Assembly (NCBI GenBank): GCA_033762255.1
Contig: JANRLT010000020.1
Location: 1 to 64,000 of the forward strand
Source: Pirellulales bacterium
GTDB lineage: Bacteria; Planctomycetota; Planctomycetia; Pirellulales; JALHPA01
Reading direction: 5' to 3'
DNA: 64,000 nt
A program made the translations under genes and the position numbers. The notes under the pieces are model-generated. The model searched no databases, had not been told where the DNA came from, and worked only from the letters and a program-made list of their open reading frames with translations. Positions 3,635 to 9,269 of the stretch are shown here, piece after piece. The first letter of the stretch is position 1, and each line of letters starts with the position of its first letter.

Positions 3635-6073
3635 TTACCGTTGCAGATTTAACAACTCGTCCAGCAACTGCTGGGCTGTGGTGACGACCCGGGTGTTTCC
3701 CCGATATTGGGAAGAAGCCAGAATCAAATCAATCAAATTCTTGCCAATGTCGGTGTTGGACAGCTCGATCGCCCCGGCGATGATGCTGCCGATCCCTTGC
3801 TCGCCGGGACGTCCCTGAATGGGCAGCCCGGAGTTGACGCCGGTGGAGTACAAATTTTCCCCTTTTTGCTCCAAACCGGTGGGATTTGCAAACCGCGCTA
3901 AGACAATCTGGCCCAGATCGCGGGAGGTGCCGTTGCTAAACACGCCGCGGATGATGCCATCCTCGCCGATGATAAAGCTGGATAACTCCCCCGCTCCCGA
4001 CCCATCCTGCCGCGAAGCCGACAACGTGCTGCGGTTAGCGGCCAAACCGGAAAGTTTGGAAAAATCGAGATCAAATTCCAGGGGCGATACAGAGGAAACA
4101 TTTCTGCGGTCGATGGAGACCGTGTTTTCATCAAAGGAAATCACGTTCCCTTCGCCGTCAAAGCGAATTGTGCCGGTTCCCACGGCAATCTTAGTCCCCG
4201 TCAGCGGATCATTATCCGGCGAATCGGCAAACCAACGATACGTGGTGGAGGTGCTGTCCCGGCTTTCCATCACCGCCGTGACCCGCACGTTGAGAGGGAT
4301 ACCCAGCGAGTCGTACACGATAAAGTCCGACACGGCGGATTGCCCCTTGGCGGTTTGAGTGGAGGTAAACCCCATATCGGGCGTTTCGACCTCGTTTGAT
4401 CCCGTGGGGGTAAATTTGAAACCGGACAGACCGATATCCAGCGCGTTATCCACGCCATTGTTTCCTATAAATTGAATCCGTCCCGAGGTTAGCACGCTCC
4501 CCCCAGGCTGGGCTCCGGTGATGTCGACGGGGATGCCATTGGAACTGTCGGGCAACTGAATGCCAAAAGAATCCTGCATAAAATTCACCAGATCTTGGAC
4601 CGTCGTAGCCGCGGTAATGGTCAGGGTTTTGGCATCCAGCGTGCGTCCCCCTTTGATCCCCTCAAAGGAAAGCGTCCCCGGACCAAACAAGTTTTCATAA
4701 TTGCTGCCGTCGCGGCTCACCACATTGGACAAGAGCGTGCCGGAATTGATCTTTGGCCCGTCAAAGTCCAGCACCGGATTGGCTATGATCGCCGAATCGA
4801 GGGCGTTATCCACAAAGACTTCGCCGGTCGTCGTGGTCGTGGGATCAATCGTGGCCAGTCGGTAGTACGTGGTTGTCTGGCTGCTGGTGTTGCGGTAAAT
4901 ATTAATCCTAGCCCCGGGTCCGGCAAATTCCCCCGTGGGGGCTGGCAGATTATCCAGGCGGATCCGGTCGCCTGTGACGTTAATCGGTCCCACGATCGCG
5001 GAGGGGCGGCTTTCCAGGGTCCCCAGGCTGGTATTGGAAAATGTCACATAGTACTGATACTGGCCCGTAAGGAGATTCGTATTTTGCAGGCTGCCGGTTA
5101 CGAGCGCGGCGTCGGTGGTTGTGTCGTTAAAGCTAGTGGTCGTTTGATTAGCCAGATCGGCCACCAAATAAGCGGGGCTGGTTGTGGTCCCCCCCACGGG
5201 AGTCCGATAAATCCGGCGGCCGGTGTAATCCCCCGTTCCATCAGTGGGAATGCTGGTCAAATTGATGCCGGAGGAAGCCCCGCCAAGTGTCACGGGAATC
5301 GTGGTGGAGGACGTTTCAGTGCCGTTCTTGCCGTAATACACCACTCGATAAATATAAGTCCCCGCCGCCAGGGCCGCCCCCGCTCCCGCGCTGGCACCGG
5401 CAAAAGCGCCCGCTGTCGGCGGATTGGCCACCAATATATCCGTAGATGACGTCGGATATGACGGATGATCATACAGCGCGTCGCCCAAGATGCCGCTTTG
5501 GATAATTTCCGCCGTGTTCGCCACATCTCCCGTCGGCGTGAGTGTCCCTTCAAAAAAAACATTCGCTGTCGCCTGCGCCACGGCTTCCGACCCGAGGGGA
5601 ATCACCAGCGGCTGCAGGGTGGTGGATTGAATGTCAAAGTTTTGATCCACCCCGTAGCCTAGCAATTTTTGGCCTGTAATCGTGACCAATTCGTTCGAGG
5701 CGTTCGTCTTGAAGATGCCGTTGCGGGTATAAAACTGATCGCTGCCGGTATTGGAAACAATAAAGAACCCATCTCCCTGAATGGCCAAATCAGAGGGGCT
5801 GGAACTAACCTGGATCGTCCCTTGCGAAAAATCCGGGGTAATTTCGGCGACTTGCACGCCCAGACCGATTTGACGGGGGTTGGTGCCGCCGGATTGGTCG
5901 CTGGGACCGGACCCCAAGCTGCGCGTTTGCAAAAACTGCGTGGCAAAGTTGGCTTCGCTGGCCTTAAAGCCCACGGTGCCGGCATTGGCCAGGTTATTAC
6001 CCACCACGTCGATCGTCGTTTCCGAGGCGTTCAGTCCGGTGAGGGCGGTATTGAGGGCGGATGCGAGACCCAT
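3635..6073 (-). CDS. flgE: Flagellar hook protein FlgE, enlarged
   Basis: Subunit of the flagellar hook. The N-terminus has the rod/hook helix and signature (ALNTALTGLNASETTIDVVG, NNLANAGTVGFK) and the C-terminus ends with the matching helix (IGKNLIDLILASSQYRGNTR ... ELLNLQR). At 812 residues it is about twice the usual size. The extra mass is a Ser/Thr-rich region at about 205-435 holding two tandem beta-type repeats: one from TYIYRVVYYGKNGTETSS to TSFNDTTTDAAL, the other from QYQYYVTFSNTSLGTLESRP to GEVFVDNALDSA. Each has a GRRIYRT/ARINIYRNT strand near its middle. Such domains would probably be displayed on the outer hook surface (inference). Gap to flgD is 145 bp. Confidence 0.93.
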   Translation of the reverse strand: MGLASALNTALTGLNASETTIDVVGNNLANAGTVGFKASEANFATQFLQTRSLGSGPSDQSGGTNPRQIGLGVQVAEITPDFSQGTIQVSSSPSDLAIQGDGFFIVSNTGSDQFYTRNGIFKTNASNELVTITGQKLLGYGVDQNFDIQSTTLQPLVIPLGSEAVAQATANVFFEGTLTPTGDVANTAEIIQSGILGDALYDHPSYPTSSTDILVANPPTAGAFAGASAGAGAALAAGTYIYRVVYYGKNGTETSSTTIPVTLGGASSGINLTSIPTDGTGDYTGRRIYRTPVGGTTTSPAYLVADLANQTTTSFNDTTTDAALVTGSLQNTNLLTGQYQYYVTFSNTSLGTLESRPSAIVGPINVTGDRIRLDNLPAPTGEFAGPGARINIYRNTSSQTTTYYRLATIDPTTTTTGEVFVDNALDSAIIANPVLDFDGPKINSGTLLSNVVSRDGSNYENLFGPGTLSFEGIKGGRTLDAKTLTITAATTVQDLVNFMQDSFGIQLPDSSNGIPVDITGAQPGGSVLTSGRIQFIGNNGVDNALDIGLSGFKFTPTGSNEVETPDMGFTSTQTAKGQSAVSDFIVYDSLGIPLNVRVTAVMESRDSTSTTYRWFADSPDNDPLTGTKIAVGTGTIRFDGEGNVISFDENTVSIDRRNVSSVSPLEFDLDFSKLSGLAANRSTLSASRQDGSGAGELSSFIIGEDGIIRGVFSNGTSRDLGQIVLARFANPTGLEQKGENLYSTGVNSGLPIQGRPGEQGIGSIIAGAIELSNTDIGKNLIDLILASSQYRGNTRVVTTAQQLLDELLNLQR

Positions 6074-6218: not shown

Positions 6219-6641
6219 TTACGATGCCGCGTTCGTGGGTAAAATTTCACGGACGTTGGTCAAGCTCGCGGTTCGCTCGCCAATGTGGACTTTAACCACC
6301 CCCCCCGCGACGGTCACTTTGTCCACCACGCCCGACAGATCCTTCTGATCATCCCCCAGGGCGGCGATTTTTTTGCCGATCAGGTTGGTCCCGCTGGACA
6401 AATTTTGGCCCAGCAAGACCGAGTCCAACGTGGACGACAACTTATCGCTGGCCGAGACCTGACGAATCTGGCTAATCTGGGTGAGCAGTTGCGTATTGTC
6501 CGCCGGATCCAAGGGGTCCTGGTTTTGTAGTTCGGCGATCATTAGCTTCAAAAACTCGTCGGTGTCGATATTTTGCAGCGCGGTGTTGGAGGAATTGTTG
6601 GAACTGCTGGACGTGCCGCTGACGGATGAAGTGGTGGTCAT
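6219..6641 (-). CDS. flgD: Flagellar hook capping / hook assembly protein FlgD
   Basis: FlgD caps the growing hook and is needed for FlgE polymerisation. After a Ser/Thr-rich start the FlgD N-terminal motif is clear: FLKLMIAELQNQDPLDPADN followed by TQLLTQISQIRQVSASDKL. The remaining 70 residues form a short SH3/tudor-like part (NLIGKKIAALGDD, VVKVHIGE); there is no room for the Ig-like insert found in E. coli FlgD, so the 140-residue form resembles the short Bacillus type. ATG at 6641 is chosen because AGGA lies six bases upstream; a TTG 33 bp further upstream is possible but less likely. Confidence 0.9.
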   Translation of the reverse strand: MTTTSSVSGTSSSSNNSSNTALQNIDTDEFLKLMIAELQNQDPLDPADNTQLLTQISQIRQVSASDKLSSTLDSVLLGQNLSSGTNLIGKKIAALGDDQKDLSGVVDKVTVAGGVVKVHIGERTASLTNVREILPTNAAS

Positions 6642-6690
6642 GGGTAATCCTAGCGAATCGGAAAATGAATTCAAAAAATGGTCCTGGGGA

Positions 6691-8570: not shown

Positions 8571-9269
8571 CTAACTTCCCGCCGCGCCGGGTGAAACCGA
8601 AGGTTCGGGCGCGGACTCGGTGGTCTCTCCATCAAAGGTTGGCAACGATTGTCGGTCGAGTCGCAATAACCGCAGGAGTTCGTCGATTTTGATTTGATCC
8701 TCGGGCGTCTTGAATTCGGCGATGATCTTGGCTTGCTTGGCGATCGGCATAAAGCTAAAGATGCGGGCGACTTCCTCGTTCTCTCCTTTATTAATCATCG
8801 TCAACATCAGTTCCTTGGCTTGCTTCGGTTTGACCGATTCCCAAATTTGCCGAATCGCCGCCCGTCCCTCATCTTCTTTGGTGGTGATCAACTTATTCAG
8901 GTTTTCGGAGTAAAACCGCTTTTCCGCCGCAAAATTTTCGATCTTTTCCAACAGCTTGAGCCGCTCCCCCTCCAGCAGCAGCGACTCGCTTTTGATCGCT
9001 TGCTCACGCAGGTCGAGGTCTTTTTCGCGAACCTGGTTTTGACGCTCCCACTCCGCGAATGTTTTGGGTTTGTCATCCACTTTCTGCGCGGGTTGGGCGG
9101 CGGCGTTGGGCAGGGCTTCTCCCCGCGCGACGGCCAGCATCATCGCCACCTTTTGCGGCTCCAGGTATCCCTGGGACTTGGCATAGACCGCCAACAGGCC
9201 CAGCGTGATCATGGAAGCCACGCAAAAGTACACCATGACGGTGCCGAATAAACCCAATAATTTTCCCAT
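8571..9269 (-). CDS. YlxF/MotE-type flagellar protein with MgtE-N-like domain
   Basis: A 232-residue protein with one N-terminal transmembrane helix (about 9-30), a charged coiled-coil middle (about 75-150; KDLDLREQAIKSESLLLEGE), and a C-terminal helical repeat typical of MotE/YlxF and the MgtE N-domain (MINKGENEEVARIFSFMPIA, KQAKIIAEFKTPED). In Bacillus ylxF occupies the same position between fliJ and fliK. MotE of Rhizobia is a periplasmic chaperone for MotC; the role of YlxF is not established. It begins 3 bp after fliJ ends, so translation is probably coupled. Confidence 0.75.
   Translation of the reverse strand: MGKLLGLFGTVMVYFCVASMITLGLLAVYAKSQGYLEPQKVAMMLAVARGEALPNAAAQPAQKVDDKPKTFAEWERQNQVREKDLDLREQAIKSESLLLEGERLKLLEKIENFAAEKRFYSENLNKLITTKEDEGRAAIRQIWESVKPKQAKELMLTMINKGENEEVARIFSFMPIAKQAKIIAEFKTPEDQIKIDELLRLLRLDRQSLPTFDGETTESAPEPSVSPGAAGS

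Follow-up and report, generated by a model that had tools for sequence, protein, structure and literature searches.

The flagellar hook protein of Pirellulales carries a tandem pair of Ig-like units related to domains of phage virion proteins

The hook gene of a Pirellulales bacterium raises the question of what the two repeated domains in the middle of its product are, how widely they occur and what they could do for a hook. We analysed a window of 64,000 nucleotides from contig JANRLT010000020.1 (assembly GCA_033762255.1). An ORF at 3635..6073 on its minus strand encodes a protein of 812 amino acids that is the flagellar hook protein FlgE. Hook/rod end domains (D0/D1) score over the Pfam cut-offs at both ends, as does FlgE_D2 at 4001-4387, and the solved hook proteins of Salmonella and Campylobacter match it both by sequence and by fold (Z 22-23.5 for Salmonella). 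The NCBIfam FlgE models match the protein as well, yet below their equivalog cut-offs. An ORF of 232 amino acids at 8571-9269 (minus strand) also lies among the flagellar genes, a position that suggests a part of the motor or of the export apparatus.

All parts of FlgE are read from the minus strand. The N-terminal D0/D1 part (residues 1-150; 5624..6073) is delimited by Pfam, alignment with solved FlgE and conservation, and the C-terminal D2/D1/D0 part (residues 577-812 and the stop codon; 3635..4345) by Pfam, FlgE_D2 and solved FlgE. About 400 residues between the D2 pieces are absent from Salmonella FlgE in the alignment. They include a D3-like domain in two parts: the first (residues ~184-204; 5462..5524) is defined by alignment with the sister order and by fold matches, and the second (residues ~442-576; 4346..4750) is common to the sister order. 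Over residues 184-576 the fold of this domain weakly resembles those of Campylobacter junction proteins and phage tail proteins (Z 4.7-6.6). Between its parts lies an insertion of residues ~205-441 (4751..5461), bounded by alignment with empty sites in the sister order and other classes. In a survey of 244 genomes from the phylum, alignments to the FlgE of the sister order cover residues ~1-200 and ~442-811 only. A FlgE could be read at 23 of the 26 loci taken from that order and from other classes, and at three it could not. All 23 proteins lack residues ~205-441 (a few residues are present in one) and keep the D3-like flanks; they are 562-611 amino acids long, against 812 in the window. Because the flanks are kept where the insertion is missing, the inserted units can be placed in a loop of the D3-like domain, which itself lies inside D2. 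FlgE is here a nested insertion, with D2 holding a D3-like domain whose loop holds two tandem Ig-like units.

The initial annotation had described tandem repeats at 4769-5460, which corresponds to FlgE residues ~205-435. Alignment and structural modelling set the boundaries at residues ~218-328 for unit 1 (5090..5422) and ~331-434 for unit 2 (4772..5083). The two units of the window are 27% identical. When residues 217-330 were aligned with residues 331-440, the score was 67, against a mean of 34.5 (sd 6.4) for shuffled sequences, of which 1 in 2000 scored as high; the local alignment pairs exactly the three pairs of motifs singled out in that annotation. Compared profile against profile, units 1 and 2 of 21 two-unit sequences match with a probability of 99.5 and an E value of 2.7e-23 over 94 columns. 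All 25 FlgE proteins subjected to the repeat test gave z values between 2.7 and 27.5, the lowest (7 of 300 shuffles as high) coming from L028, a multi-copy protein cut at boundaries derived from the window. Chance repetition is thus ruled out by the shuffles and the profile comparison. Over 26 units from the window and its relatives, six columns are invariant. In its own genome the unit profile finds the two FlgE copies (8.4e-24 and 1.0e-20); every other match there has an E value of 0.53 or worse.

An AlphaFold2 model was built on an alignment of 61 rows comprising the window protein and the fetched loci. The full-length model has a pLDDT of 83.5; within it, all ten-residue blocks of residues 241-440 but one reach at least 89, and residues 221-240 lie at 73-82. 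Modelled alone, the insert has a pLDDT of 92.7 and a pTM of 0.87. It is predicted to form two beta-sandwiches in tandem, each ending in a short helix, with seven strands in unit 1. Structure prediction had been posed as the test of the repeats; it returned two repeated folds distinct from the ordinary hook D1/D2 and, together with the shuffles and the profile comparison, bears the tandem arrangement out.

The repeats had been likened to fibronectin III-like domains of phage tail and adhesin proteins. The fn3 profile is absent from the Pfam matches at E values up to 1 in 20 FlgE proteins and in 26 units, and from the 25 of 27 families that were listed for 61 inserts. True fn3 domains align with unit 2 at Z 3.1-3.5 over 63-78 residues, scores so weak that they fit kinship or none. 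By profile the units fall outside the fibronectin III family, and the name is at best a loose label for them. The beta-sandwich repeats themselves and their likeness to phage proteins hold up.

That likeness leads to a different class of domain. Searched against the PDB, the insert profile matches four sequences at E < 0.001, and all are phage virion proteins: a virion-associated protein (8jov, 3.8e-7), the SPO1 capsid (9vel, 2.5e-5) and two major capsid proteins (9row and 5lii, about 1e-4, to 1.1e-4). The PDB result is the neutral one, PHROGs and the library of predicted viral structures holding viral proteins only. Phrog_511 is matched by 50 of the 61 inserts (best 1.4e-24) and the major head family phrog_752 by 18; six predicted viral structures match the insert at E < 0.001. 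The window's own insert matches neither phrog_511 nor phrog_752 at 1e-3, so its placement in the phage class comes through its relatives. By fold, unit 1 is closest to the SPO1 capsid (9vel; Z 10.2, 102 residues aligned, 2.6 A, 26% identity), followed by residues 165-288 of the crassvirus muzzle chain (Z 8.5, 104 aligned, 2.9 A, 27% identity); apart from alpha-latrotoxin, the next unrelated matches are at Z 4.5. The alpha-latrotoxin match (Z 7.9) is at a level that common arrangements attain. Among the fold matches listed, unit 2 has no separate one to a virion domain, and one match extends over both units (Z 8.2, 4.3 A). Searched by tblastn against phage genes, the units of the window gave no match and those of a relative gave one (E 3e-4). 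A 'phage stabilization protein' gene of phage record MW202744.1 (32744-33007) and the second FlgE unit of a relative (L070) share 37% identity in an alignment of 95 residues.

By profile, and for unit 1 by fold, the units belong with the Ig-like class of phage virion proteins that includes the first Ig-like domain of the muzzle, the SPO1 capsid and phrog_511; the Ig-like domains of phage capsid, tail-muzzle and stabilization proteins are nearest to them. In contrast to FlgE, the phage head and tail proteins show one aligned unit each. Ig-like domain 1 of the phi-crAss001 muzzle gp44 (7qol, 7qok), given by its authors as residues 163-292, is like the FlgE units inserted in a loop of another domain; gp44, however, is a phage tail protein, and its host domain is a beta-propeller.

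Far from being peculiar to the window genome, the insert is a mark of its order. FlgE was found in 72 of 118 genomes of the order (E up to 1e-60), and 71 of them, counted by hand from the tables of unit and FlgE matches, have the unit inside it. The sole exception (G299) is a FlgE fragment that starts at residue 417 on a truncated contig. FlgE has two units at each of the 80 named loci fetched, these loci being the best 80 among 202 hits of a query that itself has two; record titles of relatives name Pirellulales, Thermoguttaceae, Pirellulaceae and similar groups. Two copies are usual; in 12 of the 72 genomes, also counted by hand, FlgE frames of 943-986 amino acids accompany three unit hits per genome, and all four of these that were scanned directly have three units inside FlgE. 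The unit was found in 11 of the 244 genomes sampled across the phylum, six of them outside the order; in these six it occurs in ORFs of 720-6394 amino acids, none at the listed place of FlgE. A recent foreign insertion into this genome is ruled out, the insert being order-wide and having a GC content (windows of 300, 0.56-0.61) inside the range of its surroundings.

Several observations accompany this distribution. A record titled Candidatus Nealsonbacteria (L033) carries a Pirellulales-type FlgE, 58% identical, and is probably a misplaced contig in a bin. One FlgE match (G345:C42:29516-31948) has a single internal TAA, the mark of a broken gene or of a sequencing error. In some genomes of the phylum the unit is also found in very large ORFs of 4712-6832 amino acids (L144, L145, L153; G313, G357, G361), with almost no other Pfam matches in the stretches scanned.

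Within FlgE, conservation is lowest in the units. Their mean identity to the window protein is 0.32 and 0.37, whereas the two ends reach 0.71 and 0.67; mean pairwise identity is 0.42 for the second unit and 0.33 for the first. In a tree of 150 units, which is short of data at only 104 columns, a single supported set of 65 (95) takes in every one of the 61 second units, together with the last unit from each of four three-copy FlgE proteins. The duplication is therefore older than most of the order. Homogenisation of the units was considered and rejected: for neither unit in any of 61 FlgE proteins was its partner from the same genome the closest relative.

The same domain has a second home in the hook cap. 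In the window, flgD (6219..6674, minus strand; Pfam FlgD, 8.6e-18) encodes a protein of 151 amino acids in which the unit scan found no Ig-like unit. In another genome (G343), the ORF adjoining flgE is an FlgD that carries one Ig-like unit of the FlgE type. Within one family of the order (f7), all 18 genomes with an FlgD match have the unit in it (e.g., L185:3174-3956, minus strand; L188-L205); none of 12 FlgD proteins scanned from other families does, and the alignments of the remaining FlgD matches outside f7 are confined to the N-terminal part of the query. Among the 80 fetched loci, FlgD was found in 76 and the unit in 10 of them. Homology with FlgD_ig, the Ig domain usual in FlgD, found no support: Pfam listed that domain for neither of the two FlgD proteins scanned. 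In the unit tree, which includes 11 of the 18 f7 FlgD units, these form one clade (99) within a supported set (95) that also holds 47 FlgE first units and seven units of three-copy FlgE proteins. On so short a tree, this suggests a transfer between hook genes. We can offer, tentatively and with considerable doubt, a fuller history: an Ig module of the phage virion type would have entered the hook at the base of the order and been duplicated in place. In one family, FlgD would subsequently have received it from FlgE unit 1, within the hook gene cluster, giving hook and cap a common outer module through which they may dock to each other.

The closest known architecture to Pirellulales FlgE is that of the Campylobacter hook. 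In C. jejuni FlgE (5jxl, 5az4), too, about 400 residues separate the same strands of D2, and the outer domain (D4) is nested in a loop of D3, which lies inside D2; D3 is given as codons 233-262 and 439-618, around D4 (PMC5069557). The large insertion of the window FlgE is also found in the middle of D2 and nested in a D3-like domain. C. jejuni, however, belongs to another phylum, and what is nested in the Pirellulales protein consists of two phage-type Ig-like units in tandem. No match to Campylobacter D4 is among the comparisons listed for the insert, a result with which kinship would still be compatible. Caulobacter crescentus FlgE (5ay6) has a third domain at nearly the same place in D2, but it is a single domain with no tandem units; its fold is described as totally different from that of Campylobacter D3 (PMC5069557). 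By homology with the Campylobacter hook, the units would lie on the outside of the hook subunit, and the inserted, outward position first proposed for them agrees with this and with the empty sites.

What the units do there can be approached from the same comparison. Since every hook subunit carries the insert, with two Ig-like units in each, the units would add an extra outer shell to the hook, and contacts between those of neighbouring subunits would make it wider and stiffer, as D3 and D4 do in C. jejuni. We lean towards this reading by analogy, without strong conviction. Hook width is 280 A in Campylobacter and 180 A in Salmonella, and deletion of D3 and D4 in Campylobacter leaves very poor motility and broken flagella (PMC5097172). 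The site of the insert in FlgE, which is the place of D3 and D4, supports a shell. First and second units have stayed apart as sequence lineages, a pattern more in keeping with packing specific to each position than with free decoration; retention in 71 of 72 FlgE-bearing genomes, a duplication older than most of the order and the acquisition of the same domain by FlgD in one family also count in favour. Low conservation of the units, which also fits an exposed surface without partners, and their variable copy number count against it.

The main rivals to an extra shell are a variable coat and a role in assembly. The benefit might lie in surface change itself, by which the cell would evade phages or grazers able to recognise the hook, rather than in mechanics. 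The units change fastest within FlgE, and in Campylobacter the outer D3/D4 are the part that varies between strains (PMC5097172); the distinct and better-conserved sequence of the second unit nevertheless exceeds what a mere coat would need, and we consider this explanation unlikely. The initial annotation had instead suggested an adhesive or a sheath, neither of which finds support in these data, whereas mechanics can point to an experimental precedent. Ig-like domains act in binding elsewhere, and the very large ORFs that share the unit are possibly surface proteins. The conserved columns, however, resemble residues that keep the fold and are common to phage proteins, not a surface site, and no binding domain family scores over its cut-off, which makes an adhesive or binding surface improbable. 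Docking of the FlgE units, while subunits are exported and polymerise, with FlgD or the outer-membrane ring would accord with the single origin (99) of the f7 FlgD unit within the supported set (95) of the FlgE first-unit type, but FlgD has no unit in most of the order, the window included, and a role in assembly appears very improbable. Equally slim is the chance that a promiscuous Ig-like domain was captured and merely tolerated: such domains do recur in unrelated phage and bacterial proteins and the hooks of the sister order manage without the insert, but some 237 residues have been kept over dozens of genera with no intact loss seen, which is hard to explain without selection.

A hook with outer domains is of a known kind; what is new here is the module, its kinship with phage proteins and its second home in the hook cap. 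Among the matches listed in a literature search by title and abstract, which took in few subscription papers, none treats Ig-like domains in planctomycete hooks. The finding indicates that the hook proteins of separate lineages gain outer shells from unrelated domains, in this case from a class best known from phage particles. The sister order with its empty site, the two- and three-copy forms and the family that bears the unit in its cap make a natural comparison set for the effect of outer domains on the width, stiffness and assembly of the hook.
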